This document shows positions 11,846-42,466 of a stretch of 64,000 nt of DNA, piece after piece (position 1 is the stretch's first letter; each line of letters opens with the position of its first letter). The DNA lies in the NCBI RefSeq assembly GCF_000003815.2, contig NC_049987.1, positions 9,069,100 through 9,133,099 on the forward strand. The letters run 5' to 3'. The position numbers were made by a program, and so were the translations under genes. Origin of the DNA: Branchiostoma floridae. Lineage: Eukaryota; Chordata; Leptocardii; Amphioxiformes; Branchiostomatidae. The notes below the pieces were generated by a model. That model was given only the letters and a program-made list of their open reading frames with translations. It was not told the origin of the DNA and searched no databases.

Positions 11846-14349
11846 AATCTTTCTCTTGCTACTACAAATTATACCTGTAAAACAACATATATACGATTTA
11901 TTCTTTAAAATCCCTATCGTAACGTAAAGGTACTATGCTAAATAATGTTTTTGGGCAACAAAGATAGCTTAGTTACGTTTACCGCAGGACAAAGGATATT
12001 TATAGCCACTTTGTATCTTGACGATATTCAAAGACCGCCTGAAGCACCATAGAACATGTGTTGCATTGTGCCTTCTAGACATGTATGCTTCAATAATTTT
12101 GTACACATTACCGTTGCGAAGCACACGAGTTCCATGTACATGTATTATACAAGAAAAATCACGGTAAGAAAATTGTGGAAAGACTCGTGACATGATGTAA
12201 AGATAGATCCTTACTTCGCACATCTTTCAACATACAGTGAGATTCCCCAGGTGTATGATTGTACTATTTACTACTAGATAAGGATCTTTACTTGGGGGAG
12301 TGTTGCATATGAGTCACAGGTCATGTAATCGCAGGGGTCAGGCTCGGTCAATTTTTCTGATGCTTTGACAGAGTATCAGACGATTCCACCCGTCATTGTT
12401 CAACAATTACAGAGTATTATCTACTAAAGTGAAAAAAATACCTCCATGATCTTGGAAATGCCCGGTGTTACTAATTTTTAAATAGAATGCGGAAAATTTT
12501 AATTCCCTATACTTTTGTGGCATGTCGCGACTTATCTGCCTTTTGTAAAGAAAATAGAATAGCGAGTCACAATAAAACATTCTCTGTATTTCCATAAATC
12601 AAATAGCACACTCATAGTGCAAAACTATTTTGACAACAGGCTTTACGGTTTTCTAATTTACGCGGCCGGTCAACAAAAGAATCAAAGATAGCATTTAACG
12701 TTTAATGCTTCTGTCCTACACAAAAATACTAGTAATTGAAAATTCTCGAAACTTACGCTGTCTGTCAAATGATACAGTTACTAAAATAATTACTTGACGT
12801 GTGCAAGAAATTGTGGCAAAAGGACGAACACAAGAGCACGAAGTACAGAAGGCCTCCCTATCGTTGCCAATGTCTATCTTTATACCCAAGTTGGCCCAAA
12901 ATAATGTAAATGTGTTCAGTACTATAATTCTCCCACCCTTACCACTCAATTCCAGATGTCGGCGTCACCAATACATCGTGGCCACAGCTGTTTAGACCAG
13001 AAAGACGGCGAAATGTGTTTGTAAACGCGTTAAACAATGACTAATACTCTGCTTGTGAGTTACAGACCTTCGTCCATACTTTCTTCTTGTTTGGGTTTTG
13101 TGACCTGAAAAGAGATTACTGACACAAAGAATCCTCATCATGATGAAATCATGCGAAAGTAAGGTGGCGAATGTTGCTGGTGGTGATAGAATACTGGACG
13201 ACTGAAACAAATTTTGAACTGATTTTAATCGACTTGACTTTACTTCATACGTGTGCACTACAACATTATTATAACAGCTACGTCTGTAGCTGTAGGTATA
13301 TCAAACATTTCCCCAAAAGTGTCGGTTTAAACCTCGTGAGTTGGAAATTAAAGCCGGATTCCGTTCTTATGACCGTTTGTCCTCAGGCAACGTCTCATTA
13401 GGGGGCATATGACAGGGACATAGTTGTGACTTAAGCATAATGCACGTCTCAATGCACCAGTTAGATCCAACCAAATACCTTGTGTGCACTGCATCTGATC
13501 ACTAGCTTTAAGAAGACCACTTTTTCTGTAAAATTGTAACATAACACTTCTGTCTGTTCGTATTTATAGCTATTAAATTAGCTGTACGTGTGTGGAGGTG
13601 GGAGAGCGGAGTGGTAGTCATTATTACTATGACAGTGCTCCTTATATGTTGTAATGCAATTTAGATATGCTTGTAAATGAATACCTAAGAGTCTGTATTT
13701 TATCTCATAATGCAGCAACATCAAGTCTCAATCTTTCCTTACAGTCATCTCAGTGCAATGTGGTTTTGGGAACTGATATTGATATTCAAAGGTCCGCCAG
13801 GCAAGACAAAGCTTTACTACATTTTTCTTGTTCTCGCCCAGAGTACTTGTTAAATAAACAATAAACCAAGCAGGTACTAGTCAGTGGACCGAGCTGGTTG
13901 TATACAAAATATACCTGAGTCTAACTTGTCGACTTGAATAACAACAAAAACAGAAACCAAAACAAACGTTGACGTCATACACATTATGAGTCTGGTCTGT
14001 AGATACTCCTGACTTATTTCAACCAAACCGTTGTAGCAAAGGTTATGTTTTCATAAAAAGGTTATGTTTTTATAAAAGTCTAATTTGTGCCTAAAACCAT
14101 GTACATGTCACTCTAAGTGTGCATTCGCAGTGAAAGCTCTTGTCAATTGTATGATTGGATGTCTACTGATTACATCTTATCCTCAGGCTGTTGAATGTAT
14201 CTCTTACAATCACCTTGAATGACCTATAGTATAGCTAGAGAGACACGGTGACCAGATATATAGTACCAATTGACTATCATTTCATAGCTATTAGGGTAGA
14301 AAACACAGCTGATATATGTGTATAAACATAATGAAGTTTATTTGCAAGT

Positions 14350-20804: not shown

Positions 20805-20935
20805 TGCACATATGGTTTAATGAAGAATTTCATTCAGCACAAATAGAATAATTTCTCTCATTAAAAATGAACACCATGAAAAGTAAATGGTCCTCTCCTT
20901 AGCTTTCAACATTGGTTTTTCACTGTGCACTTCAT
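20805..20935 (-). repeat. Proximal copy of the 3'UTR duplication
   Basis: Lies just 3' of the stop codon of the CARD receptor and is similar over about 130 bp to 19886-20020, in direct orientation about 920 bp away. Its poly(A)-signal position reads AATGAA rather than AATAAA. Confidence 0.6.
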
Positions 20936-20956: not shown

Positions 20957-21655
20957 TCACAGCAGAAGCTCCTCCTCGGTCATGACGATGATGGTGATGT
21001 CACAGGCAACACCGCCCCCTGGCGTGGTGCCCTCGCAAGTGTAGGTCCCGCCCAGCTCGGGGGTCATGCTGTCGATGCGCAGCTCGTGCTTGAATCCGTC
21101 CGTCTTTTTATGCAGACCTTTAGTTGGCGGAATCATCTCTCCTTCGTACAACCATCGGACGTTCTTGGCTAGAAGTTTTAAAAGTAAACAGAAAAATATT
21201 ATTATCGCCTTTGAATATCCTTAAGGTTCCGCCTGTGGACTTGGGATATTGCACAAAAGTGGTTTGAAGCACGCTATATAGTAAGTGAGGTTTGCCTGTA
21301 TATGATAATATTACTTTAATGCATCTCGTAAACGTAAATTGGGAACATGCTGGATATTAAGGAAACATCAAGACGTTTGTGAAGTAAAGAATGTACAAAG
21401 ATTCTTGACACCGCTATTGGCTGGTCGGAATGGCAAGTTTCGACTTTACAAGTACTAGTAGTAAAATTTTGTCCACCAGTCTCTTTCGGAAGAATTTAAA
21501 GTTTGGAACTTCCGTACCTTCCCCTTTGACCTCCAGGATGACCTGCTGCCCCCTGTGCGCCCGTACGGACGTGCCTGACATCAGGTTAAAGGGGTGCTGC
21601 ACCAGCTGTAGTCCCACTCCGTTCATCTCTGCACTCTGCACGGCTGTCTGTTTAC
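20957..21655 (-). other. C-terminal cytoplasmic Ig-like domain of gene B
   Basis: Exons 21518-21655 and 20957-21168 encode about 115 residues. The first exon reads QHPFNLMSGTSVRAHRGQQV. The second reads NVRWLYEGEMI, then LRIDSMTPELGGTYTCEGTT and the end EEELLL-stop. The pattern W...L.I.....G.Y.C is that of an I-set Ig domain, here placed after the CARDs and so on the cytoplasmic side. The B-strand position (QQVILEV) lacks Cys, as in many intracellular titin-type Ig domains. Confidence 0.8.
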
Positions 21656-24600
21656 CTGGACAGAACAAAAATCAATATTTCTTTTTTTTTAAATAGAGTT
21701 TTGAAATTGGAGTACTTTATGACCCACAAATGGTGTTTATAGAAGTGTCAATACCATAACTCAGAATATGAATACATTATTGATTATACTTTTCACAGAA
21801 AATATTTTTTGTTGTTTTGAATTAAACATCACCGTTTCCTCAAGCATATGTCCTTAAAGGACCTAATATCCATTAAACCGTGTTCTGATTCAACATGTAC
21901 ATACAGCAATTCAAGTGTATAACATTACAGGTAGTCAAAGAAGTCGTAACAGTGCCTTACCATCCAGCATGTCGGCCAGGTAGGCCTGTTTGCCCATGGT
22001 CCTGAGGGCCTCACAGAACACGTCAAAGGCGAGGTCATCCCGGGACGGCAACAGGTCCAGAATCCGCTCGTTCCTCTCCTCACGAAGAGGCGCGTTGATG
22101 ATGTAGTTACCCATGGCTTTGGAGAAAACCTGGTGGAATGTTTGGGCGAAATACTTGTGTCAATATCGACAATGTGAGAGGAAAATAACTTGTACTACTC
22201 TTCAAATGAATTGCTGCAACAGCCCAGAGTTGGAGATATATTCTTCATAACCCTCTCCCCACAGTTCCCTTTGTTAGTGTCCACAACGTCACCACTACAC
22301 CACATGCTGCTTGCCACCATCTCGCCCTGTGCCGCCATGCTGCATGCTTTACCACCGCCGTCACCACGTGCAGGCCGCACCTCCTGATAAGACAACTGGT
22401 TAGTGATACCTGAGGTCTGCCGACTACCTGGCTCTGGGACAGGTACGTGATGATGGGCTCCGGAGACATCTTATCCACCAGCACCGCGCGGTGACGGATC
22501 AGCTGCAGCTTCTTCGCGCTGGTCATTCCTGTCAATCAAGGAAGACTCGTGTCAATCATGATCAACTCCCTTACGTCATAGTCAAAGATTGCTACTAGAA
22601 ATAGCTGTGATTGACATGTAATTTCGTATAGGCAACAATTGATCATGCTATATCTTTAACATCACTAAGAGACCAGAAGAAGTTCGACTTATATAGTAGT
22701 AGATGAGTATTGGAAGCCCTGAAATTATATGTAATTTATTACGACTTTTGTATCTATATGCCTCTTCTCAGTCCGATAGGGCATGAATGTGCAAAAACGT
22801 TATCACCATCATTGATCTTCATGGCTGTTCCGGGCAGGGCTTATTTTCAAAGGTAACGTGTATGAACTGCTGTTAGACAAGTGCTTGACTTTCTCGTTCT
22901 TCGGTGTACAATCAGAGATTTATAAAATATAACGTTAATAACACATACAACAACAGTTCAGGTTTGACACAAACTGAATTTACCTTCTCCCTCCAGGGTG
23001 TCAGCCAGCCAGGCCAGGTGAACCCTAGTTCTCAGCGCTTCACAGAAATGTTCGAAAGCCTCGTCACCACGTGGTGGCAGCATGTCCAGCAACTTCCCAC
23101 ACTTCGCTTCCTCCGCACGGAGACTATAACGGTAACAGTTTTGTGAGGATGTATACAATATAATGGCACGTGAAGAGGCGCAACCAATGTAACACTGCAC
23201 ATCTTACAAACACATGTCCTTCCGTCTAGATTGGAGAAAGAAGAACTGCAACGTAGATCAAAATGGAACGTTAGATTTACCTGTTCAAATCGTTCACTTG
23301 AGCTGGTGCCAAGACCTCCATTTTAACCAGGTACTCGATGACCTTGTCCGTGTCCTTCACGTTGTTGATGATGATAGATCTGAACGCCAGCAGCATGTCT
23401 CGTCGGTCCTTCCTCATAGCTGCAAGGAGACAGAAATGGTTAAAAAGGAATCAGAAATACACTAATCCTTCGCAGAATGGAACGTAAGTGTACGCAATGA
23501 CGCAGAACGCAAAAGTAGAATGCACGCAAAATGGTTACCTTTTGGCGCCACATTATCAAACGAGTATCTCACTGAAGAAGCGGCACGTTGGCAGCGTCGC
23601 TATGTGCGAACGATTTGACAGCGCACTCAACGAATTTCAGTTCTAAAAACGAATCTTATTAGTACAAGTGATACGCGTTTTGTCTTTCAGCCATACGTTT
23701 TGCATGGTCCCTTTTTAAAGTCAAGGGTAACACAAATCGAATTTAAGACGTGGCGACGCCGCTAACGTGCCACAGCGTCAGTGAGATACCCGCTTAAGAA
23801 TATAGAGATTTTTGTCCAGGAAGGTTGTATATGTACGTACAATATCAACATTTCAAACCTACCTGTGTCAACAGTGGGTTCCTCCAGCAGGTCGGCCAGC
23901 CAGGCGGAGTCCGGCAGCATCCGGAGCGCCACGATGAACATCAGGAACGCGCCGCTCTTCATCGTCATGATGATGTCCAGCAGCTTCTCGTTCATCTCGT
24001 GCTTCGTCTTCAGCTTCTTGATGTCCTGCGCCACGTTGATGGAGAGAATGTCCTTGGACACCAGGAAGTCGATGATGGGGATGGGGTTCATGTTGTCCAC
24101 CAGTGCCTGCCTGTGGGTGATCAGCAGCTCCTTCTGGTGAGATTGGAGCTCTGCGGGGGAAATATAAAACATTCAAGTGCCATAATTTTTGTCTACAGAA
24201 ATTTCAATTGAGTCAAATGAGACATGAAAGATCAAAATAAAAGATTTTACTTTATCTGAAGGTCGTCATGTTTCAATGACGATTTTAGTACTTATATATA
24301 TAGTAGATTTTAGTAGGTATATATATCACATGGCAAGGCTCTTGCTTGATATATATACTTGCTTGATATAACAAACCGATCGCAAACTGGACTTTTGAAG
24401 AGCTTAATACTCTGCTGTCTTCCCTCCAGGACTCTAAGCACCAGAGTGAAGTAACAGGATTACTGGGGGTGGGGTGAGTGGTAGTTGTCATATGGTTCAC
24501 AGTGGGATCATAACAGTACTTAATCAGTACCTTTCCCTTCCAGAAGGTCTGCCAGCCACCCTGCATCACAGTCCCTCCGGAGTCCCTCACACAGAGCGAA

Positions 24601-27600
24601 GAAAGCGTCGTCGTCCTTGGTCGGCAGGATGTAGAGGAGCTGTTCGTTGGCGCCCTTCTTGGTCATCTCGCGATCCACGAGACTGAACTCCGTGCGAGTG
24701 ATGGCCTTGCGCAGCAGCAGATGGTACAGCATGCGCTCCGGGAAGATGTGCTCCAGCAGATGGAACCTGTACCGGATCAGCTCTTTCTTGTACCGTTCAG
24801 ACATACCTGAAAACCAAACCATTGTGTCAGAAGATCAGAGGGAGGGGTTAAAATTACGCCCCGCAAAGATTTTATGTTTGATTTAAATATTTACACCTTC
24901 AATCCCTTGATACCCTTCTATCAAAACACAGTATCTTATCACATATTGGAGAGGGGAGATGGAGAGGCATCGGGGTAAGTGGGGAACAATATGTTTGATC
25001 TAAATACTTTATACTCGATATTAAATATCATAATTGATGTTTTCATTTGATTTCTTGACATCATCTTTTATTTTTGATACTGAACTACCTGTTTTTATGT
25101 AGCTTATTGTTTTTGAACGTTTCTTTGTGTTTATTAGTAACTGTACCAATGTACGTATTTCTTTTTTCTTGGATGATCAAAAATATGAAAATGAAAAATA
25201 TGATTATCTTGGCTATTTATACTTGTTTTGTTCCATAATCGGCATACCGATTCATGGCATAACGCAACTGGGTCTTAGTACAAACTGCATATATTCGAAA
25301 AGATTTGATTGATCAATTCACACTGGGATGGATCCCTACTCTCTGATAAGTGCGATGGATTCTTTTAACGTGCTCAAGGTGTGGGTCTACTCAAACACGG
25401 AACCCCCATTTGAAATAACGGCAGTCCTTAACCAAAGCTGGGTACTAATTTACACCTGGGTTGAGTTAAAACAAGTGCTTTTAAAAAAGCTGGCATTTTG
25501 CCAATGTTTGCGTGTGTGAACGTTTTTTTCTAGTTATTAGAATGTCATATAAATAGAACAGAGTAACTAAACGCGGTATTGGCGCATGGAGAGATTCACA
25601 TATGTGCCTGAACTGCAGCAGATCTAGACGACACCTGTTAAAATTTGCGTGAACTGCAGCAAATTTCACTACACATTGCCTGTTTTTGAGTGAGCTCTGT
25701 TGCGGGGCATTTTTAAGTTTTTTTTTTAATTTTTATTTCTATTCGGCAAAAAAACGAAGCGGCGAATCCGTTAACCAAAGAAATAAATTGGTGTGGCCAA
25801 ATGGATGTAAAAATTAGTATTTTAATGGCTGTAAAAAAGGAAAAAAAAAGTTGAAAAAAATCTACCTCCCCGGATTCGAACCGGGTGCATTGGTTTAGAA
25901 TGCGTAAACTTTACCACTGCGCTAGTGCGAACATGTTGAAGAAATGCCTGTTTTAACAGGTATACAAATGTTTGGCATGGATTGAACAGGTCCGTTCATC
26001 TCAACATCACAACGGCGACTACACTGGCCAGAAGGCATTTTGCGACTGCAAGTCGCAAAATGCAAAAAAATGAGTGTTAAGGTCCAAAGACACAACACCG
26101 AGATCTGTCAGAGATTAGAAGTTAGTACCCACAGGTTCCGAGTCACCAACGCTAAACACATGGCAACCTTGTCACCACCCACCTGTTGTGGTTACGTGTT
26201 ATCGTTAACGTGTGACACATGTACATGGTACTTTTAAATCGTTACCATCTGGGAGGAAGACGAAGTCGGGGGTCTTGGAGACGAGGGAGGGTTTCCTGGA
26301 TCCGGAGGAGGGGGTCTGGGAGTGGTAGGAAGGACTCTTGGAGTGGAGGGATGGGCTCTGGGAGTGGGCGGATGGTGTCTTGAAGTCGACGGGATGGCTC
26401 TCGGGATGGAGGGATGGGCTCTTAGAGACGAGGGAGGGTTTCCTGGATCCGTAGGAGGGGGTCTGGGAGTGGTAGGAAGGACTCTTAGATGGAAGGGAAG
26501 GGCTCTGGGATGGTGTCTTGAAGTCGACGGGAGGGCTCTTGGGAAGGAGGGATGGGCTCTTGGAGTAAAGGGAGGGTGACTTGGTTTCGAGGGGAATGAT
26601 CTTGGGGTGGAGGGACGGGCTCTTGGAGTAGAGGGAGGGATTCTTGGGGTCCTTCTTGTAAACAAAGCTGGGGTTCTTTTTTGTACCTCCTCCCTCGAGA
26701 AGGTCTGCCAGCCAGGCGAGTTGACAGGAATCCCTGAGGCCGTCACAGAAGGCGTAGAAGGCGGGATCTCCCCGGGACGGCAGCATGTCCAGAATCTTTT
26801 CCACAGCTTCCGGTTGGGACTCGGACCGCCTCAGCTGACAAAGAGACACAACGTGTTTACAGTTCATCCCTAAAATATTTCCTGGGTGCATGTTCTTGGA
26901 AGATCGTTGTCTTTCGCTCAATGCATTACAAAGGATCTATGCCACAATAGTCTGTATCAACAGCACAATCGCCATCAACTTATTGATTACCTTCGCCGAG
27001 AAGATTATGTTTCTGGCAGCGTTTGTATGTCTGTATGTTTTTGGTCTATCAGCGTAATAAAAAAGCTGGACATGGATCATAATGAAACTTGGTATGTTGT
27101 CAGGCCATGTTCTATGACAGAAATGATTAGATTCGGGGACACTGGTTGCTTTCCGTGGTACTGAAGCTTGGTACTGAAGCAGATTTTCCGGTTTGGATAT
27201 TTCGTCTTTTTACTGCAATACTTGAGACTACCTACCTCGCCTGCGATAGGACTTGTGATGATGCCTCTATCCAGGAGATAGTCTGTCATCAGGTACGGAT
27301 TAACATGTTCCACGATAGTCGAACGGTGGCGCTTTAGGGCTAGTTTGTGCTCTTCAGACATAGCTGTCGGCAGAAAAACAATTTAGACAAAAAATACGAC
27401 AAAACTCATAACACACTTGTGATCAACTGATAATAAGAATAACTGGTTATATTATGAGTCATGTTGGAATTGAAAACTACGATGGTTTGCCAAATTTATG
27501 GACAATCATTGCTGCTAAAGTATTAAAAAAACGTTGGAAACTTACCTGAAGATTTGAAATCCTGCATGGCGATTTCACTGAGCTCCCAGTCGTCGCTGTA

Positions 27601-30600
27601 ATACTTCTTATGCTATACAGAAATACACCAAAAGTCATGATTACGTTCTTACTTATCTGAATATTTCAGGAGGTGTAAAAAGTATTTTGTACGTCAAGTT
27701 GAACGTCAATTTATACATCATTAGTGTACACGTCAATTTATACGTCATTTGTGTACACGTCAATTTGAAGATGAATGCAATTTCCTCTGGCTAGCTATAA
27801 TGTCCCCATTTATATATAACACACAACTACAAATAATCTTATTTGTGTAGCTTGTTTTTTTGTCAATAGCTTGGTTTTCTGTCAAGGAGAACAAGAAGGT
27901 ATGTCGTACCTTTTTCTTGCCGCCATAGCCGCAGTACTCCGCACATCCAGCACAGCACGGACAGCAGGACAGACAGCAGGCACAGCACAGTCCCCACCAG
28001 TGTTCGCACAGCCCCTTCCACCAACAGCAGAAACACAGCTGTACACAAACACGCACAAGACATACTGCTTAGAAACACATCGAGGTTAAACACAGACCTT
28101 AAAAGATCGTACGGAAAACTATGTTTATATCTTTATGTACTCTCGCTGGCGGGGGTTAATGACCCCCTCTCCGGCACCCCCTTCTAGTTCATGGCAACCG
28201 TAGGACTGGCTGCTAGGTCCGCGATTTCAGTCAGGCTATCTTTATACTATACTACAATGACTTCCGTCCCATTACGCTCGAATGCAGTATTCATACTGAC
28301 TTAGAAACACGAATCTCTATGAGTACAGGGAATACGACAAAAGATTAGCAGAAAAAACTACCAGTACGTAATCCATAGAAACGCATGGAAAAAGGAAGAC
28401 TTACCAAGAACAGCAAGATGAGGAGTAACAGGAAGAAAATGATGAAGAGGAACAGTCCCAGGGGAACACCACCGACGTACGACTGGGCCAAGAAGCCGGC
28501 CTCGCGCGTTTTCGCCACCACTGCGTCGCTGTAAGGGCCATACCCACTGGCCGTCCTCCCTTTAACCTGGAACATGAAGAAGCAATGTATTTGAAAATCA
28601 AACAGATAATAATGTATAAGAGAAAGTGAACTCTGCTTTGCTACTAGATGTACAGTTACATTTCTGCGTGTTACTTGCAGTTTCTTCTGCCAATGTATGC
28701 CTCGCAACTGGAAAGGTAAGCACATATCGTAATGTTAGCTTCACTAGCTAGAATGTCATTGCACCTTAAAGATGCGGTTTAAGCGCTAGTGATAAGGCAC
28801 GCTGTAAAGTGGATATCTGTGTGCGAAGTCTTATACCTGAAAGGTGTATGACTCTCCCGCCGTTAGATTCCCGACAACGGTAGTTGTTTCTGGTCCGACG
28901 TCTAATTGCTTCATCTCTGCCGAGTTGGCACCATTTTCATCATCATCGTTAGTGAGGAAGTAGAGGACCCGGTAGCCGATGACCTGCCCGTTGTGTTCCG
29001 GGATGTCCCAGCGAAGACTGACCGAGCTGTCCGTCGCGTCGATGGCCTTCAGGTTTTTAACCTGCTTCGGTGCTGATAGAACACAAAAAGATGGTGTTTT
29101 CGTTTCTTAAATACATCTTAATGTTTAGAAATATTTATTAGCTGCAGCAGAGAACGTTACCATTTTTGGACGCTCTATCAAATGCTTGTATGAAGTTCCC
29201 ATAATTCAATGCAAGACAGGCGTCAATTGATCTGTTTTCAAATGGGGCAAATATAGATGACTTACGTCCTTCTCCTGAGAACACCACAGCCCTGTCGCTC
29301 ATGGGACCGGTTCCGTACTGGTTAAAGGCCTGAACCTTGGCCTCGTGCGCCACGAACACGCCTAGCGGAGGGTCGGGGCTGTGCACGTAGTGGTCCATGT
29401 TCGGGTCAGTCACCTGTACCACCGAAAAGTCGTCTGTCGAACCGAGCTTCTTGAAGAAAATCTTGTAGCCAAACCCGGGTCCGCCTCGGTACTTCTCTGC
29501 TAGAGCCTAAGGAATTGGAACATGAATATGACTATCTGTATGTATCAATGAAGTTTTAAAACTGTCACAAATGTACAGAGTTCTGATTTATGACAATGTG
29601 GCAGATATGTGATATCTGAACCCTCAATTAGAATATTCTAAAGGGTTATCTTACGTTCCATCTGATCACCAGGTCTCCGATGTCACCTCCGCCTCCTCCG
29701 ACTCCGCCAACCTTGGCGACAGGGGCTGGTGAATGGAACAATGGTAGGTTAACGTATGTGTGATTATACTGTCTCCTAGTTACTATCATCTAGACGATAA
29801 AGGGATATGGTTCGATCTGTATACCACAAATTAGATAGAAATTGACGGAGTGGGGATAGAGGAAGTGGTAGGCGTAGTGGTCGAAAGGGAAGAAGAAGAT
29901 AAAGAAGAGGGAGATGGAGAAAACTGTAAGGATTGCTCACCATCTGAATGTGTGCTGTATATCGGCGAGGGAAGACTTGGTTCACCCAGCCCGATGGCGT
30001 TCATGCCGAGCACGCGGAACTCGTAATCGTTGCCTGGCAACAACTCTGACACGGTGGTCTGCATCCTGTCGTCTGCGAGTACCTCTGCAGACCCTATGGG
30101 GCAAAGAAATACAACAAAAATGATGAAATTGTAAATATTTTGTGACTTCTGATTTTTTATCAGATGAAAATTATCATTTGCAATGTAAGACCTTATTATA
30201 TCAGTCATCTGACCTGACTCCAGAGTGGTCCAGCTCCGGTCCGTCTGTGTCCTCCCCTGAACGATGTACCCTGTCACGGGACTGTGGTTGTCACTCCCGG
30301 CAGTCCATGCGACCCGACCTGTCCTGCTGCTGACGTCACTGGCGCGAACATGTAGAGGGGCATCTGGAGAGGCTGTTGGTTGGGAAGAAAAGCAAACACA
30401 ATTGTATAAAGAAAAAATGCCCCCATATGCCAAGTCCAATGGGTATACCAGAAAAGAAGTGTCTTTAATACATTTTTGTCGTTCTAGAAAACAAATCACG
30501 TCTTCTTACCTCGATATATTCGATCAAAAAATCTTTCTTTACATTAGAATAATGTTAAACTGAAGGTTGGATGTACGTACCACGCACAGTGAGCACAGCC

Positions 30601-33600
30601 CTCTGCTCCCGGCTGCCAGTCCTCGTTTCCACAGAGCACACGTAGGTCCCCTCCATGACTTTGGTGGTCTGTAGAATCTTCAGGGAACCGTCTGAATCCT
30701 AAACAGAGACAAAACATGAAGATATACACTGCACAGGTCGTGTGTGAAAAGCTAACTAAAAGATTGTATACCATAGAATTATGAAGATCATTAGGTCTTA
30801 AACATGCATTTTTCCTGTAGGCTATAAACGTTTAAACATATAGAACATGTAATGACCTTGACGTAGTGGTCGCTGGACAGGTCTACGCGGTGGCCGTTGT
30901 GGAACCAGGTTTTGATGACGTCTGAAGAGGAGCTGCCGCCGGTGGAGCACGGAAGGGTCCCGTCCTGCTGGTAATCCACTGTCACCCGCGAGGGATTGCC
31001 ACTGGACCGCGAGGATCCGTCTGTGGGGAAAAGGATTAAGTCACGGCGGTCTGATGTTGGTCAAACGGTTGAAAGTTTTCAAATCAGAAATGACTCTTGG
31101 GTCGTGCAAACGTCGACAAAAGAAACAGGAGTTGCTGTGGTGCGTCAAGGGTTCTGCGTAAACTCACTGTAAAAGTTATTTCAAGCAGTACTTCAGAAAG
31201 TTTGTTTCAGTTTTCTCCGAAAGTTTCTATCCCAGACATCTTAAAGTAATTTACAAAGCAGAGAAGTTCATCAATTCAAACAGTTATCAAGCAAAGTGAG
31301 CTTTCAGCGCACGAAACTGACCTTGAACTGTGAGTGTGGCCGTACTGGTGGCTGCTCCCATCCGGTTCGTTAGCTGGCAGGTGTACATGCCACCATCGGA
31401 CAGCTGGACACCTGTGATCCTCAGACTTCCCCCGTCCAGCATAGAATATCTACAAGGACAGGTGGTATGTATTGTTACTGTAGCTGAAAGACGGTGCTTG
31501 TGCGGAGCTTGTAATTGCACACGCATGAATTCCAGTCTTTTCACTGCTTTACAGACATGACAGTCTTTTGTAATCTTAGAAATACTTCATGAATCCCTTA
31601 CCTCCCGCCAAGTTGCACGTTTGCTCCGTTCTTCTTCCACGTGACCGTTGGTACGGGCACTCCGCGCCTGCGCATATTGAAGACCACGGTACCTCCAGCG
31701 GACGCAATGATTTCTGGGAGGAGCCGCAGTCCAAACGATGGAGGCTCATCTGTAAAATGAGAAAAAAAATCATTAAATCACATACTTCTTTCATATCAGG
31801 TAGGGTTTGTTATACGTTCAATCAACAGAAACAAGGAAATGCTATTGGAGAGAAATAAAACCGTTACCTTGTGCCCTGAGTTCCGCAGCGCTGTTCGCCC
31901 TGCCCCATTGGTTGAAGGCCACACACTGGTAAACACCGCTGTCCTCTGCACGCAGTCCCGAGATGCTCAGCGAAGCAGTGGAACCTGAACTAGCCAGAGC
32001 CACTCTTCCGCCTCCGTTTAGAACCTACGTTTGTAAGAAATGAAATGTTTTGATGTACGTATTTCATAACCATCTTGATGCACGCTGCTGAGCTGCTGTC
32101 CCTTTTCCACCACAGCAGACTATGTCATACATTTGGCCCCCGAATATGATTATGAATATCATGTCAAAAGAATTATGACGCAACAAGCACGTTATTGAGC
32201 CAGGTTAGTCCTTTTCCTGGCCATTGTTCTGTGACCTTCACCACGCATGAGGCACAGGATGTACTGTCTGTCTGAGGAGGATGTGGTCAATCTAGACACC
32301 TTGGTGATAACATCTCTCTAGACTGCCACTGTCTGTCAAGCTTGACACTTTTATAGGTATTCATAATGTCTCAATGTATCAATAAAATTTCATGTATCAT
32401 AAGCAATGTATGTTGTCTCGCCATTGCAGAGCGATAGGTCCTCACCGATATGCAATAACGGGTGCTGGTCTAGAGCCTTCACCAGGCCTAACTACGGCAA
32501 ATGGATCGGCAAAAGAATCGGGAAATTTTCCAAGGGAGTCAGTCCACACTATTAAAGGTTAATGTTTCCCCTCCGGCCAGCCAAAATCTCTCAGATAGCA
32601 AAACTCCCCTGGCAAGTCATCCTCCCTATAACACTACAGCAAGCGTAGTCAGTCTGGTAGAGACTAGCTCTTCTATGTTACCTGTCCGTTATGCAGCCAT
32701 GTGTACGACACGGTGTAGTCGCCGTCTGTACGGACCTCCCAGTGAGCTCTGCCGCCCAGCTCAACATGCTGACTCGACAGGCCCTGGAGGAACTGCGGAA
32801 CACCTAGTAGGTAGACAAAAAGAGAAGTGTTTAGAGATTGAACTGTAAACTAAACTCACTTGTCCTGTTCTGTCCTTTGCACACGCAAAATCAACTGCTT
32901 TGATTTTCCTTAGCGTTTTTCCTTTATTCTCCCTTGTCTATTCGTACCGGGCACTTGTGTTGTGACCCATGTGCAATCTGCCGTTAACCTCTGCACAGAG
33001 AATAGGCAGTACGAAAGAAGAAGAGAGAGCTTACGAAGATTGTTCATTTTTCATCTCAGAAATTGATGAATGAGAAAATGCTGAGTTTTCCACAAACACT
33101 GGTGTCCGTTATGTCAGTACAAATTCATTTATTCATTTATCTATGTCAGTACAGATTTATAGCTTCACCAGCATTCATCAATATTCATACGTTACAGACG
33201 AACGGAAACTACCTTGTACGATGAGTTGTGTGGATCCCGAGGCGCTCCCGCTGGAGCTGGCGGCCCGGCACTCGTAGAAGCCGGCGTCCTGCAGGTCCAG
33301 CTTGGTGATGATGAGGGCCTGGTTCCACTTGTCCAGGTAATGGTTCACAGGGAGAGGGGTCTCCACTCCGAACTGATCCAGACGCCGCCAACTGATCCGG
33401 GGTACTGGGCTGATGGAGAAGGAGAGACAGATTACATCTTTTCCAACAGCTGGAAAGGGGTACGTGTCGATGAAATGCATCAAAACGTTTATCAAACTGG
33501 ACGTCGTTATTCATGAATAACAAAGTCGTTTATCCGCTACCAAAGAGTTACAACAGCCAAAGTTTCGGTGACTGACTGTCACTTTTCTCAGAGCAATGAA

Positions 33601-36600
33601 GACTGTTTTTCTTCGCACCGCAGATAGGTGTCGCTGCTGCAGTGTGATGAATACAGTCCCAAACGTGACTGAGTGTGTATCCCCCTTCATCACGGTTAAT
33701 GGCTCCAGTGGATCTTTTATTCACTTTATCCATTTCTAAGTACAAATCTGTGATAAAGATGAGTCTACATGTACAGGTACATGGTTTGAGTTGTTGCCTT
33801 ACTTTCCGTACGCGAAGCATTCCATCCTGACTGTCGTTCCCCTCAGCGCGGACACGCTCCTCTCGGACACAGCGAGCTGGGGCGCCACCTGGCCGGGCGC
33901 TGCAGAACGACAGATAAATGCTTAGGAATATGTTTCAATTCAGCATTTACTAATCTTCAACCAGATCCACGGTGTCGTGATATATAGTATCAAACCCACC
34001 ATAGTTGGCCAATGGCCAATGGTCTCACTTTGGCTAGCTAACCGTAGGATCTGCTTGGAGATTAGACAATCACTACAGCAGCCATGCGCTAAGTCAATAA
34101 CCATTGCTGTTGGAGTTCGAGTAAACAACCTTATTGTTGAGTAAACAAGAAAAAGAGAAGATGGCAAAATAAGAAATTTATTCCTCGCGTCACATGACTA
34201 GTCTAAGTTTTCCGTGACCTGATTTACTAATGAGGTTAAGAGTAAGAGTAGAACTCACGTCTCCTGGTGACCCTGAGAGTGATGGGCGGACTGTAGCGAC
34301 CCTCTATGCTGATCTCACTCAGCGGTGAGTGGTCCGTGGAGCTCTGCACCAGGCATTGGTACTCTCCGGCGTCTGACTCCCTCACCTGCGCGAAGTACAG
34401 GTCACCCGAGGTCTCCGACACGAACACGCGGTCGTCCTGGTCCACGAAGCTCGGGAACTGAGTCTTCACCCAATGGAACACCAGTCCTGAAATAAGAACA
34501 GTCAGACTTAACTTTAGACACAGTTATGTATGATTTGACTTCCAGCTCCAGAAGAAAATATTGTAGGATTGGATAGCAGAAGAAATACAAGGAATAATTC
34601 ATATTCTGTTGAGAATTATTCACCCAATGGAACATCAGTCCTGAAATAAGAACTGTCAAATGAAACCGAAGGCATTGTTATGTATCTTTAACAAGTTTGA
34701 ATTCCAATCAGCGATGAAAATGTTGTAGTATTGGATATCAGAAGAAATATATGGAACTAGAAACGAAACATTTTTTTTAGAAAACGTGTTTTTTTTCCTT
34801 CCCAGTAATTTGCCTTTTGTCAAACCACTCGAGATATCGCCGGGCCATGACCAAACTAAGGATAAGCGATCATCCACTGGAAATTGAAGCTGGTAGATAT
34901 AACCGAACTCCTCCTGACGATAGATTATGTATATTTTGCGATAAGAGTTTCATGTATGTAGAAAACGAAGTACACTTTGTCCTAGAGTGTTCGCTGTACA
35001 AAGATCTGCGAAATGCATTCGCTAATGCTACACATATAGATAAAAAATATGCGCACCTGACGAAGGAAAATCTGTTCAAATACCTTATGTCATCATCTAA
35101 CTACGATATACTGGAAAAACTCTGTAAGCTCGTCCACGCATGTTTTAAGAAGAGAGAAGAAACATGTAAACTGTAATATATATGTATAGCTTTCCGATTA
35201 CTTACTATGTACCAAACTGACTGCATTTAGCCCCAATGGGGCATGAATATGCAGTAACTTCATTGTCATTGTCATTGTCATTGTCACTATACCATTAGGC
35301 CCGGTCCGGAGGCGTCGCCAAAAAATACCACTTTACATTTGCTGCAACCTTGCTTCAACAGCTAATCTTCAGTTCATATTTGTTATAACAGCTCATTTTC
35401 GGTCATATGTGCTACAATAGCTAATATTATGATATCACCGACAGTTGCTGCTTCATGACAGAAGAAAAAGAAGAAAATGTTTCTCTAAAGGAAATATAAT
35501 CATTCATATTATGTTGAGAATTTCAACTGAAAATTGAGACGTTCCGCCGAGTTATGCAGCTACGCCCAAGATTAGTTGGATTCTGATTAATAGAAGACGA
35601 AAGACCGTACCAGGGTGTCCCTCTGGCGGGTCACACACCAGCCTGGCCCCGTGTCCCTCCAGCACTGTCATGCCGGGCCGTGCGTCCGTCGAAAACCGTT
35701 CCACAACTAGGGTAGAAGACAGGTGGCACATTTGAGTAAAATCAGTCAGAATTACAGTCCGACAAAGTCTTTTTACGAGTCTACAGTACAGAATGAGGAA
35801 GCTAATTGCTTTGCAAAAATGCAATATTTTTCACCAAGCAATTTTTTATACTCGTTGAATCTTTGACACTAGCAACAATGACAAGGTCTCTATGGTGATA
35901 TGTGTAGAGAATTGATCATGCATATGTAAAAAGCACTGCTAGTAGTTATAAATTAACGATTCGACTCACAGGCGAAGGTGAGGTTGCTCGGCCTGCTGAC
36001 CACAATACCGAGGTCGTTAAAGGCCAGACACTCGTACAGTCCCGCATCACGGTCCTTCTGTGGGTTGTCAATCACCAGGTTTCCACCAATCAGGGTCAGC
36101 CTTTCATCCTTCAGTGAAAGGAGGAAGAATATTTCAGAGATGCGATTATCATTACCAAACCAAATCAAACCAAAGTGAAAGTTGGCGGTTGAAACTTCAA
36201 ACTTTGTATATAGTTCTTTATGTTCTACATACAATAAATCAAGACTTGTGACAATACAGTGGCATCAACCTATAATCGAATTCAATTTTTTTTGTCTCAA
36301 ATCCATCAGAATGCGAAAACAATCAAACGTCAAACAAAAGTACTCCGTTCGGAATACATGACATTGTATAATAACGCCGTAGAGTGATATTTAAAAGTTG
36401 CTTCCCAAGGCCTTGATTACATTGACTCTACAAATTTACTTGTTGATGTAATATCTTATAGTTCTTAACTCTTACTTAACAAATTTGCTTGATGGTATGA
36501 TATTTTACAGTTCTGATATTTTACAGTTCTTAGAAATGAACGTTCATCAAAAATCTCCAGGTAGCGCTCACCGACAGTACGTTGAGACCTTGGCCGTTCT

Positions 36601-39600
36601 TCCTTGTTTCCCAAGGACTTACATTAACTCCTCATATTTGCTTGATGACGGTGTAATATAAATTTAAGTTCTTAGACATGCACGTTCATCAAAAATCGCC
36701 AGGTAGCGCTCACCGACAGTACGTTGAGTTCTTGACCGTTCTTCCTCCAGCGGTACTGCGGAGCCGGGATGCCCTCCCCCTTGCAGTTCAGGGTGACCCG
36801 CTGGGTGGAGGAGGACGGGTCGTACACGATGTCCTCCGGCTGGACGATGATCCTCGGCGTCACCACTTCTTCATTACCGAGCACGACTGTGAACAATGAT
36901 AATGATAATAATGATACATCTGGTGTATAACTTGCACCCGAAGTGTGAGTAATGAGACTGATACGTGCTTGAGGTCCTTCTCGAACACGGGACCCCCGTT
37001 TTACGTCCCTTCCGAAAGACGAATTCGTGAATTCTTGGTCTCCCATCCAAGTACTGTCCGGACTGCGCGTTGCGTAACTTCCTAGATCGAGGGATCGGGT
37101 GTATCCAATGCGCCACACGGCCGTAGCTACACACGTACGGTTATAATTTTAATTCCATAGTGGTAAATGATGGGAATTTTATCCTTAACTGGCATTTAAG
37201 TTAAGCAAAGGTAAACATCATTAGACATATCTCATGCAATGAACGCGTCGTTTTCATAATTGATGAGGGTATGCTAGATTAGCAATCTTTGCTAAGATCA
37301 GACTTTCACACTTTAAACAACTTGATCAGCTGATACAATTTATGCAAATGAAAGCCAATGAGAAACATCTATGATACGTCACTCGAAAAGGCTATCATCA
37401 TTTAGCGAAGGCATGAGGTCGGAGGAATTCATATTTAAACACAGAAAAGAATGCTACACATAACGCAAAATGCGCTTAAAACATACACATACCAGAATGG
37501 AAACTCCCGATGTAGAAAAGATACTGTGATTATAATTGCCATTCGGTATTAGACATGCAAAATTGATGTAACTTTTGCTGCGAAACTTTCCTGTGATCTT
37601 TGATATTCATAAGCACTGCTGAAACGGGATTTTCATCGGAAGATTATCTTTGCGATAGTCCGAAGCCTGCTTTTCCCATTCTCACGATCGAAAAACCGGT
37701 AAGGCAAGGGACTGGTACGAATCTCAAAGGATGTACCAAAAAGCCCCGGGAGACAAAAATTGCTTCTTGAGAGACCAACACTTTTCTTTGATCTTTGATA
37801 TTCATACGTACTGCCGGAACGGGATTTCAATCTTAAAGGAAGATTTTCTTTTCGATAACCTAAAGCCTGCTTATCCCATTCTCACGATCGAAAAAACGGT
37901 AAAGCAGGGTACCGGTGCAAATCTATAGGAGATACCCAAAAGGTAAACCTTCAAAGACAAACAGATGACTATTTTTCACATTATGTCTCCAATCTTGTGA
38001 GATACACTACGAGGTCTCCAGACAAAAGTCGTGAACAAGTCAAGTATAAATCGTTTCTACAGCAAAAAAAAAACTATACTTCCATTTTTCATGGAGGTAC
38101 TTAATGATTTGCATGAAAATGACGAACACTCGAACTATTTTCTATATCGTTTTTCATCCACTTAAAGAATAATATCAAGACCTATCGTTTTATTAACATG
38201 TTTTGTTTGTCTATATTGAACTATCTGAATTGATTCAAATCATGTTGTGACCCCTGTTGAATTAGAATGGTACGCCCCAGAGGGACCACTAATTACTTAT
38301 ACAGAAATTTTGAAGTTGTCTTTAACCCTCAAGCACCCGACCTTTTTTTGCGACTAAAATGACCGAGTGGGGTCCAAACGGACCCCAAAATATTTTGTTC
38401 ATAACATCTCAGTTCCAATTCCTATCGGTGATCATTGTGCATACATTGCTTCGTCAATGTAAGAGGAATATTTTGACATGTTAAGGTGTTGCTAATTCTA
38501 CCTCATTATCATAATTTATGCAAAAGATCAGAAGGACCATGTTTTGCACTAAACTCATTCTGACCAGAGAGGGGAATTTTGAGGCCCTCAGCAAGCTTTA
38601 TGTCGCATAACTCATGAACGGCTAGTGCTAAAGCTACGAAACTTGGTAATATATCACAAAATATTGTTAGCAAAATATTTTTGTCAGTAAAGTAAATTTA
38701 TCATTATTTAGGGTTGCCATGGCAACGGAATTCTGACAGGCATATTTTTGCAAAAATTTTCCAATTTTGATTTAAACAAGGTTTTTTTGGTAAACCATGC
38801 TTGTTTTCTTACAACAATAAAGTTCTATGGAGTTTAATGCTTTTTTCATGATTCAAAATTTATAATTTATGCTAATTTCATGACGTCATTAGTCAAAATC
38901 CAAGATGGCCGCCCTTATAAGGTAAATGACGTCATAATGACGTCACATTATATGGTAATGACACAGAAGTTTCTAGGAGGATTTAGTTTGACATGTTTAC
39001 TATTCTCTGAAAGTTTGGTGGTGATAGGATAAGTAGTTAGAGAGTTAGACTCAAAAGTTTGTTTCAAAACCTGCACTTTTTGGCTGGGGTCCGTTTGGAC
39101 CCCAGACGGACTGATCACGGACTTTCTTTATAGCTTCCACAGTGTTGTACCAATCTTCATAAAAACGTAGGAGAAGGTATAGAAGACATTGGCTGACAAA
39201 GTCACGGAAGGATTTTTTCGTCCAATAAAAAATGTTCAAATGGTACTTCAAAATGTATGCCTGGGGTCCAAATGGACCCCACTCGGGTGTTTGAGGGTTA
39301 AACCTTCGGGATTGGAATGATAAGTTCCCAGCCACCTGTATCTTTTCTTATTCATCATGGGACCATAATTATGCAAACTTCCGTCAAATCAATCAATAGA
39401 TAGTACGAAAAGCCACCCTTGTAACACTACAAGTATAAAAACGTTAACCTTAATATGGACAACATAAGTATGAATTGAGGCAGTGGCCTTAGAATTTTAC
39501 TACAGTATATCTATTTTATATTCATAAAATGGAATAAACATTTCATACGTCTTTACACACCTATGCATTTGAACGCCCTTTTCTTTCTTACTTAACACCT

Positions 39601-40127
39601 TGTACATTGTGTTTTATATAGGGTAATTATCCATATAACAATGTATCATTTTCCTTCTTGCGAAGGTTTTTCATTTATAAAGTGATATTTGTGTGATCGT
39701 ACCAGACGGTCTAGTAAAATGCGACAGAAATAACGAAAGCCTCGTAGACTGTTGGCGCCTACCCTTAGCATTATAATTCTACAGCCTTGTCCAGGGGAAG
39801 TAACTCTCTCCTCCGCTCGGTATTTAAGTTACAACAGAAAAGAACAATTCATGCGTCCAGAATGCCAAACGGTGGGTGTGAACGCTTGGAAACGTGTTGA
39901 AAACAAAGTCACGTTCTTAGAACGACCCGGCCTTTTCATGTCATTGCGTTCAACCAACTTGTAAACTGACGATGAATATACCTTCCATTCTGGTGATTTT
40001 AGTTAACAGATTCATCTAAATTACAGAAAAAGTGTAGCGGAGCTGTATCAAATGTCTTACCTGCGTTTGCAGCGTATGTAAAACATGTCACGAGCAGCGC
40101 GGCCGCCCAAACTTGTCGCCACCTCAT
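20957..40127 (-). CDS. Contactin-like transmembrane receptor with five cytoplasmic CARD domains (gene B)
   Basis: Predicted 1743-aa type I membrane receptor. Exons: 40061-40127, 36714-36886, 35970-36108, 35611-35706, 34259-34486, 33803-33899, 33213-33409, 32682-32803, 31868-32024, 31602-31749, 31322-31449, 30857-31020, 30581-30698, 30214-30372, 29941-30093, 29655-29725, 29266-29506, 28837-29072, 28405-28566, 27910-28038, 27546-27612, 27236-27363, 26246-26834, 24531-24806, 23863-24150, 23281-23419, 22984-23123, 22428-22528, 21961-22129, 21518-21655, 20957-21168. All borders are GT/AG, phases agree, and the total is 5232 nt. Order: signal peptide, Ig1-Ig6 (to about 611), FN3 x3 (612-925), TM (932-952), Cys string (953-995), CARD1 (1018-1112), KSP linker (to 1256), CARD2-CARD5 (1257-1627), Ig7 (1628-1743). 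Contactin signatures include CDPPEGHPG, DNHSPVTGYIVQ and GGGGG...LVIRW. By analogy it should bind adhesion partners outside the cell and recruit CARD adaptors inside; the signalling role is inference. Confidence 0.92.
21961..22528 (-). other. CARD5 of gene B (two exons)
   Basis: Exons 22428-22528 (MTSAKKLQLIRHRAVLVDKM, IITYLSQSQ) and 21961-22129 (RNERILDLLPSRDDLAFDVF, AYLADMLDG). The inner intron is phase 0 at the same helix boundary as in CARD1. The segment between helix 2 and helix 4 (VFSKAMGNYIINAPLREE) is longer than in its siblings. Confidence 0.85.
22735..22830 (+). mobile_element. LINE 3' tail relic
   Basis: The segment around AGGGCATGAATGTGCAAAAAC resembles the 3' UTR of the LINE relic at 34817-35290 (GGGGCATGAATATGCAGTAAC), and both are followed by a short simple tail. 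It is intronic in gene B, between CARD4 and CARD5. Short, so tentative. Confidence 0.35.
22984..23419 (-). other. CARD4 of gene B (two exons)
   Basis: Exons 23281-23419 (MRKDRRDMLLAFRSIIINNV, VIEYLVKMEVL) and 22984-23123 (KLLDMLPPRGDEAFEHFCEA, AWLADTLEGEG). The outer borders are phase 1 and the inner intron is phase 2, unlike the phase-0 inner introns of CARD1 and CARD5. Confidence 0.87.
23863..24150 (-). other. CARD3 of gene B (single exon)
   Basis: One 288-bp exon, phase 1 at both borders. It encodes HQKELLITHRQALVDNMNP, IIDFLVSKDIL, NEKLLDIIMTMKSGAFLMF and AWLADLLEEP. It is the most diverged in its helix 4-5 region, where the usual PSRGD turn is replaced by TMKSG. GC content is high compared with its introns. 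Confidence 0.85.
24531..24806 (-). other. CARD2 of gene B (single exon)
   Basis: One 276-bp exon with phase 1 at both borders. It encodes MSERYKKELIRYRFHLLEHI, LYHLLLRKAIT, NEQLLYILPTKDDDAFFALC and GWLADLLEGK, matching the CARD helix pattern over about 90 residues. The symmetric phase-1 borders make it a shuffling-compatible cassette. Confidence 0.88.
25330..25480 (-). mobile_element. SINE tail fragment
   Basis: On the minus strand it reads GGGGGTTCCGTGTTTGAG followed by CCTTGAGCACGTTAAAAG. These are the same ordered blocks as in the SINE at 36890-37130 (GGGGGTCCCGTGTTCGAG ... CTCAAGCACGTA). No 5S-like head is visible here. It lies in the intron of gene B between CARD1/linker and CARD2. Confidence 0.45.
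25862..25935 (-). pseudogene. tRNA-like pseudogene or tRNA-derived SINE head
   Basis: On the minus strand there is a box-A-like TAGCGCAGTGGTAAAG, a perfect 5-bp anticodon stem GCATT/AATGC around loop CTAAACC (anticodon AAA), and a perfect T arm CCCGG-TTCGAAT-CCGGG. A T-run (ATTTTTTTC) follows, like a Pol III terminator. The 3' acceptor strand GAGGTAG finds no partner upstream and the D stem is broken, so it is not a working tRNA. Confidence 0.5.
26246..26690 (-). other. KSP/SP-rich linker between CARD1 and CARD2
   Basis: About 145 codons of low-complexity sequence with seven KSP motifs and many SPSL, SPSY, TPS and RKPS steps. It contains an internal duplication of about 40-49 codons: the segment from PVDFKTPS through SPSYHSQTPS to GSRKPSLVSK occurs twice, with a DNA offset of 147 bp (GAGACGAGGGAGG at 26278 and 26425). 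It resembles proline-directed kinase substrates such as neurofilament KSP tails. The reading frame is open on other frames only because of composition. Confidence 0.85.
26684..27363 (-). other. CARD1 of gene B
   Basis: Encoded by exon 27236-27363 (MSEEHKLALKRHRSTIVEHV...) and the start of exon 26246-26834 (AVEKILDMLPSRGDPAFYAF). It shows the CARD pattern: a basic first helix with LKRHR, YLLDRGII in helix 2-3, LLDMLP-type helix 4, DPAFYAFCDGL and a final AWLADLLEG. A phase-0 intron splits it after AGE. It is joined to the membrane region by a 22-codon exon (27546-27612). Confidence 0.88.
26990..27170. repeat. Possible dispersed repeat with TTCGCCGAGAAG motif
   Basis: AT-rich intronic stretch (TTACCTTCGCCGAGAAG ... 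GTATGTCTGTATGTTTTTGG) with the look of a dispersed element. A weakly related TTACCTTCGCTGTCTGTCTG occurs at 54488. No ends were found. Confidence 0.25.
27910..28566 (-). other. Transmembrane helix and 14-cysteine juxtamembrane string of gene B
   Basis: Exon 28405-28566 ends FN3-3 (YGPYSDAVVAKT) and then encodes about 21 hydrophobic residues (LGLFLFIIFFLLLLILLF). Exon 27910-28038 (43 codons, phase 0 on both sides) continues straight on as LCFCCWWKGLC..., with 14 cysteines in 43 residues, four Trp, and a closing GGKKK. Cys clusters just inside a membrane helix are typical of multiply S-acylated proteins. Palmitoylation is therefore a reasonable inference but is not shown. A membrane anchor replaces the GPI signal of vertebrate contactins. 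Confidence 0.85.
34602..34790 (-). repeat. Tandem duplicate of the acceptor and start of exon 34259-34486
   Basis: Minus-strand TTCTTATTTCAG followed by GACTGATGTTCCATTGGGTG repeats the true acceptor and first about 20 nt of the Ig2 exon (GACTGGTGTTCCATTGGGTG at 34467-34486). The flanking intron is duplicated too (ATTGTAGGATTGGATAGCAG against GTTGTAGTATTGGATATCAG). The copy keeps an AG and the reading frame for a few codons before diverging. Confidence 0.8.
34817..35290 (+). mobile_element. Non-LTR retrotransposon 3' fragment (LINE relic)
   Basis: A 119-codon frame (34817-35176) ends in a zinc-knuckle-like C-X2-C-X11-H-X4-C (CIFCDKSF ... EVHFVLEC), preceded by GRYNRTPPDDRLC. This is the usual C-terminal tail of LINE reverse-transcriptase ORFs. 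The 3' UTR ends in a (CATTGT)n simple tail near 35250-35290. It is 5'-truncated and lies in the intron between exons 34259-34486 and 35611-35706 of gene B, antisense to the gene. Confidence 0.8.
36538..36615 (-). repeat. Duplicate of the 3' end and donor of the Ig1 exon
   Basis: The segment 36540-36610 copies 36682-36745 with a 142-bp offset. It includes the donor GTGAGCGCTACC and the exon end, read as RKNGQGLNVLS against RKNGQELNVLS in the real exon 36714-36886. It has no acceptor of its own and lies in the following intron. The surrounding intron shows further weak tandem copies of TTGCTTGATG...ACAGTTCTTA. Confidence 0.8.
36890..37130 (-). mobile_element. 5S-rRNA-derived SINE abutting the Ig1 splice acceptor
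   Basis: On the minus strand it starts CTACGGCCGTGTGGCGC and continues through GGAAGTTACGCAACGC to AGTACTTGGATGGGAGACC, following the order of 5S rRNA including its internal promoter region. A body with GGGGGTCCCGTGTTCGAG follows, and the tail is ATTATTATCATTATCATT. The tail runs directly into GTTCACAG, the acceptor of gene B exon 36714-36886. Confidence 0.75.
37594..37940. repeat. 195-bp-offset tandem duplication
   Basis: A unit beginning TGATCTTTGATATTCATA at 37594 recurs at 37789. It includes CCCATTCTCACGATCGAAAA in both copies and is similar over about 150 bp. It is in the first coding intron of gene B. No ends or coding potential. Confidence 0.8.
38322..39301. mobile_element. piggyBac-like MITE with TTAA target site
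   Basis: A 980-bp element bounded by TTAA. The left end is TTAACCCTCAAGCACCCGA and the right end TCGGGTGTTTGAGGGTTAA, inverted with one mismatch in 19. TTAA targets and ends opening with CCC are piggyBac hallmarks. Subterminal GGGGTCCAAACGGACCCC-type palindromes occur at both ends and once more near 39087. No transposase remains. It lies in the large first intron of gene B. Confidence 0.87.
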
Positions 40128-42205: not shown

Positions 42206-42290
42206 AGTGGTCTGATTTCTTAGTACCGAGGACGTAACGGAAATGACTGTCACTTTAGGTTTTGACTCTGTATGACTGAGGATCGTCGAT

Positions 42291-42466
42291 NNNNNNNNNN
42301 NNNNNNNNNNNNNNNNNNNNNNNNNNNNNNNNNNNNNNNNNNNNNNNNNNNNNNNNNNNNNNNNNNNNNNNNNNNNNNNNNNNNNNNNNNNNNNNNNNNN
42401 NNNNNNNNNNNNNNNNNNNNNNNNNNNNNNNNNNNNNNNNNNNNNNNNNNNNNNNNNNNNNNNNNN
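42291..42466. other. Assembly gap (176 N)
   Basis: A run of N directly beside the 123-bp minisatellite. The repeat probably caused the gap, so the true array may be longer. Confidence 0.99.

Follow-up and report, generated by a model that had tools for sequence, protein, structure and literature searches.

Gene structure and reading frame

We analysed a 64,000-nucleotide window (C9:9069100-9133099) of a lancelet-type genome of 513.4 Mb in 431 contigs, which was also the genome used in all the genome searches reported below. The minus strand of the window carries a gene, here termed the contactin-CARD gene, whose 31 exons were manually rebuilt and then verified by a scripted check from an ATG at 40127 to a stop at 20957. 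All 30 introns have GT-AG borders, and the frame is unbroken by any internal stop. The predicted protein runs from a signal peptide through six immunoglobulin (Ig) and three fibronectin type III (FN3) domains to a transmembrane helix. Beyond the helix come a Cys-rich juxtamembrane segment and a short cytosolic one, each on its own exon, and then five CARDs and a final Ig domain (Table 1). The rebuilding reproduced the strand, end points, number of exons, domain order and compatibility of phases proposed in an initial, sequence-only reading of the same DNA. The coding length of 5232 nt given there has to be revised: it is 4800 nt with the short form of the CARD1b exon and 5241 nt with the long form, to which the earlier figure is near, the difference being the 441 nt added by an alternative donor at 26246. 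Because a splice acceptor sits immediately before the ATG of exon 1, a further upstream exon with 5' untranslated region (UTR) is suggested.

Table 1. Window coordinates of the contactin-CARD gene and of the adjoining paralogue P1
Feature	Window positions	Strand	Details
Paralogue P1, 5' part (signal peptide, Igs, FN3s)	37..11846	minus	first exon weakly predicted
ATTAAA poly(A)-type signal	20816..20821	minus	about 136 nt past the stop
Terminal Ig	20957..21655	minus	two exons (21655-21518, 21168-20957 including stop)
CARD5	21961..22528	minus	two exons (22528-22410, 22129-21961)
CARD4	22984..23419	minus	two exons (23419-23281, 23123-22984)
CARD3	23863..24150	minus	single 1-1 exon
CARD2	24531..24806	minus	single 1-1 exon
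Optional extension of CARD1b exon	26246..26686	minus	Ser/Pro-rich repeats (KSPS-like); in-phase alternative donor at 26246
CARD1	26687..27363	minus	two exons (27363-27236, 26834-26687)
Exon 21, short cytosolic linker	27546..27612	minus	phase 0 to 1
Exon 20, Cys-rich juxtamembrane segment	27910..28038	minus	LCFCCWWKGLCEHWWGLCCACCLSCCPCCAGCAEYCGYGGKKK
Exon 19, FN3-3 end and transmembrane helix	28405..28566	minus	phase 0 donor
Exons 14-18, FN3-1, FN3-2, bulk of FN3-3	28837..30372	minus	
Exons 2-13, six Ig domains	30581..36886	minus	rebuilt exons, Pfam, structure matches
Ig4, Ig5, Ig6		minus	32803-31868, 31749-31322, 31020-30581
Ig1, Ig2, Ig3		minus	36886-35970, 35706-34259, 33899-33213
Exon 1, start codon and signal peptide	40061..40127	minus	MRWRQVWAAALLVTCFTYAANA (by eye)

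Some minor features were noted inside the gene. Just upstream of the Ig2b exon there is a short, diverged copy of its acceptor and opening part (34621-34640, minus strand; by eye), and the Ig2 intron holds an open plus-strand stretch (34781-35173) with a CxxC...H...C pattern that by eye resembles the end of a long interspersed element (LINE) reverse transcriptase. Intron 1 contains a minus-strand 5S rRNA-like stretch (37014-37128; 37.5 bits against the Rfam cut-off of 38), which is perhaps a 5S-derived short interspersed element (SINE).

A contactin-derived ectodomain on a transmembrane helix

The I-set profile of Pfam was found in six stretches of the ectodomain and two stretches pass the fn3 profile on their own; all three FN3 domains are spanned by a match to FN1-3 of contactin-3 (5e4q, residues 618-916). 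The best match among solved structures is contactin-2 (E-value 2.3e-149), collinear over residues 33-874 against contactin-2 residues 14-847, compared with a much weaker 1.5e-45 for neurofascin; contactin-2 was found again for Ig1-2 of the paralogue P1 (2.8e-53). Vertebrate contactins are anchored by glycosylphosphatidylinositol (GPI). The protein shares with the contactin family (CNTN1-6) the collinear array of six Ig domains followed by FN3 domains and differs from it in two respects. First, no contactin match extends past FN3-3, which leads on to the transmembrane helix, so that FN3-4 is missing and there are three FN3 domains versus the four of contactins. Second, in place of the GPI anchor it has a transmembrane helix and a long cytosolic tail, as judged from the transmembrane exon and the in-phase Cys-rich, linker and CARD exons rather than from a GPI-site predictor. 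Because the protein departs from vertebrate contactins in both the four FN3 domains and the GPI anchor, we call its ectodomain contactin-derived rather than contactin, and by its alignments it is contactin-derived. No canonical GPI-anchored contactin was identified elsewhere in the genome, where the best other Ig matches (C1, C5, C8) were not followed. The transmembrane helix placed after the FN3 domains by the sequence-only reading coincides with the hydropathy maximum of the whole protein (3.58 over 19 residues).

Five CARDs and a terminal Ig domain

All five segments that had been picked out by their CARD-like pattern match the CARD profile PF00619 over its Pfam cut-off of 23.9 bits, CARD1 to CARD5 scoring 39.9, 29.0, 37.1, 39.1 and 34.0 bits. 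An unspliced scan of the genome lists just CARD3 from this gene; introns interrupt three of the others, and CARD2, with the lowest score, is not listed. CARD3, the single domain modelled, is predicted to form a six-helix death fold: its AlphaFold2 model (predicted local distance difference test, pLDDT, 92.5) has the CARD helices with helix 1 split, and its top Foldseek matches and closest solved fold are the CARDs of APAF-1 (TM-scores 0.88-0.90). Each CARD is encoded by an exon or exon pair that constitutes a symmetric 1-1 phase module, and exon shuffling in lancelets is biased towards such modules, according to PMC4284660. The terminal Ig domain matches the I-set profile at 34.1 bits and is conserved across eight modelled copies (see below), none of which has the B-strand Cys. 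This lack fits a cytosolic location weakly at best, because Ig4 and Ig5 of the ectodomain are also without that Cys (by eye). We do not claim a relationship of the terminal Ig domain to MALT1, which was absent among the 38 matches shown.

Tandem and dispersed relatives

False joining of neighbouring genes is a known fault of lancelet gene models (PMC4967905), and for this reason we examined independent copies. The genome was queried with the CARDs and last Ig domain, and only the best candidates were scored, so that the counts are lower bounds. Besides the window gene, the query brought up clusters on C9 and C2 as well as at C9:2.64 Mb, and the 31 exon peptides were then searched against the C9 regions. 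Six further copies (P1-P6) form a head-to-tail array at C9:8.955-9.081 Mb, all on the strand of the window gene and each with contactin-like Ig and FN3 domains, then CARD, then the last Ig domain. What had been described as one gene is therefore a member of a tandem family, standing at the end of the array within the C9:8.94-9.13 Mb examined. P1 straddles the window edge, its transmembrane, CARD and terminal Ig exons lying beyond it at C9:9067557-9062781. One P1 intron holds, on the opposite strand, a tRNA-Ile gene with a GAT anticodon (1111-1186, plus strand; 61.4 bits, Rfam), an anticodon that is unusual for nuclear tRNA-Ile. A seventh relative, C9b, is isolated at C9:2.624-2.639 Mb and shows the same order with both halves on one strand. 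The relatives thus share the order of contactin ectodomain, transmembrane segment with Cys, one or two CARDs (as against five in the window gene) and last Ig domain. The exon-chain predictor was trained on the window gene, which makes its recovery of that gene circular, and it over-predicts tiny exons.

A second cluster at C2:23.582-23.798 Mb comprises at least seven CARD-Ig units on both strands, judged mostly by their coordinates. Upstream of five of the seven there are Ig1-Ig3 matches on the same strand and in the right order; in one of these five (U6) the first Ig match is 13 kb farther upstream and possibly does not belong to the unit. A query with the FN3 domains gave no match on C2 at an E-value of 0.001 or better. 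Other Ig genes reach scores equal to those of the C2 Ig domains (for example C5 5.1e-8, C1 7.5e-8), so that C2 is weaker evidence, carried by place and order. With C2 taken by coordinates, both halves are present in 13 of the 15 CARD-Ig units counted, and the family has at least eight units, probably 13 when those placed by coordinates are included. A further candidate at C18:740-780 kb was dropped as unrelated, having Ig-type matches and no CARD at the threshold used.

One gene or two

The chief alternative is that the locus holds two adjacent genes, one for a transmembrane contactin and the other for a cytosolic multi-CARD-Ig protein, which were duplicated together as a cassette and are joined merely by our reading of the exons. 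The bridge between the membrane segment and CARD1 bears directly on it. All seven relatives have a hydrophobic helix (19-residue mean 2.84-3.61) with at least two Cys residues after it (e.g., LLALLCCCLGC, TLCCCCCLWC and ILLCCCCCCCCSCC; P5 has just CC). The best-scoring donor of the transmembrane exon is in phase 0 in all six tandem copies, the acceptor of CARD1 lies exactly 2 nt before an ATG, in phase 1, in all eight copies, and a linker exon leading from phase 0 to phase 1 was found in the window gene and P2-P6. C9b has the transmembrane exon, ending in phase 0, split from the Cys-rich exon as in the window gene, with the counterpart of the latter at the equivalent place (2634310-2634409) and running from phase 0 to 1 directly into CARD1. 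A phase-compatible link is hence available in seven of the eight copies. As a control for the linkers, we scored 24 intron chunks of the window gene, of which the highest reached 29.7 (this chunk may be the Ser/Pro extension) and the next 8.9 and 7.1; the linkers of the window gene (17.6), P5 (19.0) and P6 (14.1) score above 23 of the 24.

The spacing and signals of this interval also argue against two genes. The last membrane exon (transmembrane or Cys-rich) lies 0.38-0.82 kb from CARD1 in all eight copies, a tight fit for the terminal exon and poly(A) site of one gene plus the promoter and 5' UTR of another, whereas the last exon of a modelled gene is 4.1-10.8 kb from the first exon found of the next in all six cases. 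No AATAAA or ATTAAA occurs on the minus strand between the transmembrane exon and CARD1 of the window gene, nor after the transmembrane exon in P1, P3, P5 and P6. Moreover, the pairing of the two halves is retained outside the array by C9b, and probably by the five C2 units with upstream Ig matches.

Several observations weigh on the other side. A two-gene unit duplicated as a whole would yield much of the same pattern, false fusions of neighbours being known in lancelet gene models, and all the relatives come from the same single genome. No convincing linker exon was found in P1. The linkers of P2 (7.5), P3 (7.7) and P4 (5.9) score above 22, 22 and 21 of the 24 controls, respectively, and another candidate in P3 scores higher (8.2 versus 7.7); because two or three controls outscore them, the case for these linkers is mainly their mutual likeness (KSEAFTMYERNGRPSNFGVD, KEESIPLAKRKEMSKDYGVD, KNELFLLSKRNWKARNYEVD). 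The peptide spanning the transmembrane, Cys-rich and linker segments matched only itself (three matches) in the genome, which is why we regard these segments as kept by character and place rather than by detectable sequence. If the transmembrane exon itself is taken as the starting point, CARD1 is 1.04 kb away in the window gene and 1.28 kb away in C9b. The intergenic distances are partly upper bounds, the first exons of P3-P5 being poorly found. Three of the eight copies (P2, P4, C9b) do have AATAAA or ATTAAA in the interval from the last membrane exon to CARD1. CARD1 begins with Met in 8/8 copies, compatible with a translation start, but Met also begins four of the six aligned inner CARDs. 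Two of the seven C2 units (last Ig at 23603617 and 23611354) are without an upstream ectodomain match, the Ig matches of the other five are equalled by other Ig genes, and the relatives' CARDs lie over the Pfam cut-off in four cases of seven and under it in three (P4 and P6 left out). On balance, we consider two co-duplicated genes very unlikely, and a real receptor family with one gene per copy is probably what the locus contains. The sequence-only reading is supported as regards the single frame, the single architecture, the contactin-type ectodomain and the true CARDs; the immune or death-signalling function that it attached to the fusion is still conjecture.

Selection and divergence among close copies

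Ratios of non-synonymous to synonymous divergence (dN/dS) were low in all the main parts of three close copies. The P2-P3 comparison gave 0.18 (ectodomain), 0.20 (CARDs) and 0.16 (terminal Ig domain), and P2-P4 gave 0.20, 0.13 and 0.22 for the respective parts. The part between the CARDs and last Ig domain gave 0.27 (P2-P3) and 0.40 (P2-P4). By these ratios, the ectodomain, CARDs and last Ig domain are under purifying selection and kept as protein. The P3-P4 pair was compared for the transmembrane and linker parts only. The linker exon gives no nucleotide match; aligned by place, it shows more synonymous than non-synonymous change per site in all three pairs, over about 11.5 synonymous sites. 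An apparent in-frame stop in Ig5a of P4 was taken to be an artefact of a gapped stretch in the alignment, the P4 model reading through open.

Synonymous divergence between P2 and P3 is uneven, from 8.5 of 56.3 sites in FN3-2b to 40.8 of 60.0 in Ig1, and at synonymous sites the copies P2-P4 (C9:8.996-9.052 Mb) resemble each other much more in the FN3-2b exon than in the distal Ig domains. This suggests local homogenisation of the membrane-proximal exons by a process like gene conversion. Such unevenness might also be expected if the family were under turnover and served in allorecognition or as pathogen receptors, with some copies serving as decoys or degenerating and with membrane-proximal exons homogenised while distal Ig domains diverge; the presence of at least 15 CARD-Ig units, mostly clustered, and the variation in CARD number between the window gene and the modelled relatives point the same way. 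The low dN/dS in ectodomain, CARDs and last Ig domain speaks against such turnover, which we judge somewhat unlikely. No diversifying selection was seen in the P2-P3 and P2-P4 comparisons, which used dN/dS of whole parts rather than of single sites.

A proposed membrane receptor for CARD assembly

We consider it likely that the contactin-CARD gene, as a member of a lancelet-type family that has undergone tandem duplication, encodes a type I surface receptor that crosses the membrane once and would couple a contactin ectodomain to CARD-type signalling. The contactin part would bind a partner on another cell, in the matrix or on a microbe, and the Cys cluster might be palmitoylated, anchoring the receptor in ordered membrane. 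Clustering by ligand would then gather the CARD arrays, from which assembly with CARD-bearing adaptors or caspases could start through CARD-CARD contacts and so trigger NF-kB-type or caspase signalling, with the terminal Ig domain acting as a cytosolic docking or spacer domain. RIG-I carries paired CARDs that serve assembly, and by analogy the five-CARD array may provide each receptor with several assembly sites. CARD signalling is otherwise known from the cytosol or mitochondria, with receptors reaching it via adaptors or NLRs. It is possible, although we would stop short of calling it probable, that the roughly 13 clustered genes constitute a new class of plasma-membrane CARD receptors, with contactin ectodomains joined directly to CARD arrays, that sense cells or microbes through surface contact and nucleate CARD signalling at the membrane free of adaptors.

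Because the expansion is clustered, immune recognition is the leading reading of the receptor's role. Contactins are known for neural adhesion, however, and the fusion could be real and yet serve adhesion or neural wiring, its CARDs being a scaffold that clusters adhesion complexes with no immune or death signalling. The contactin-like ectodomain, the suitability of the Cys-rich juxtamembrane stretch and terminal Ig domain for a scaffold, and the failure to see diversifying selection in the three close copies would agree with this. We nevertheless hold it to be unlikely: tandem expansion with repeated retention of CARDs is more like a recognition family, and CARDs in known proteins are mostly signalling modules.

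Among known systems, the receptor with CARD-type signalling proposed here resembles UNC5, with its death domain, and the IL-1R family, with its TIR domain, in having an Ig ectodomain, one transmembrane segment and a cytosolic oligomerising signalling module; it differs from them in its contactin-type ectodomain and in a CARD array followed by an Ig domain. With APAF-1, NOD1, RAIDD, the tandem CARDs of RIG-I, and MAVS, it shares the CARD profile and fold, the APAF-1 CARD being closest in fold. MAVS combines a CARD with a transmembrane segment; we know of none of these five that is a plasma-membrane adhesion receptor. No protein with five CARDs and an Ig domain appeared among the matches shown. 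The sequence-only reading knew of no described protein with the order contactin, transmembrane helix, CARDs and Ig, in agreement with our searches of the open-access literature, where no description of a contactin-CARD protein was found among the papers listed.

Lancelet hybrids of receptors and death-pathway domains as such are already in print: TNFR-caspase and other hybrid receptors, several with cDNAs reported, are described in Genome Biol 2008 9:R123 (PMC2575513), from the main text of which the word 'contactin' is absent. As with the TNFR-caspase hybrids, shuffling in the lancelet would here have put a death-pathway domain straight onto a surface receptor, but both the ectodomain and the effector domain are different ones, and the contactin-CARD fusion, undescribed among the papers listed, is predicted from one chain of exons that recurs in the relatives. 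If a conserved family of CARD-bearing adhesion receptors is confirmed, cell contact would be linked directly to CARD assembly, and 1-1 phase exon shuffling would be seen to have converted an adhesion molecule of neural type, in a chordate relative, into a likely recognition system. The family is also a convenient test case for distinguishing genuine lancelet domain fusions from spurious ones.

Other features of the window

A tandem-repeat-like tract at 42197-43895 includes an assembly gap (42291-42466), and another gap lies at 58628-58727. On the 5' side of the contactin-CARD gene, open stretches on the same minus strand (51311-56506) read like a protein that we take to be of the carboxylesterase/cholinesterase type.

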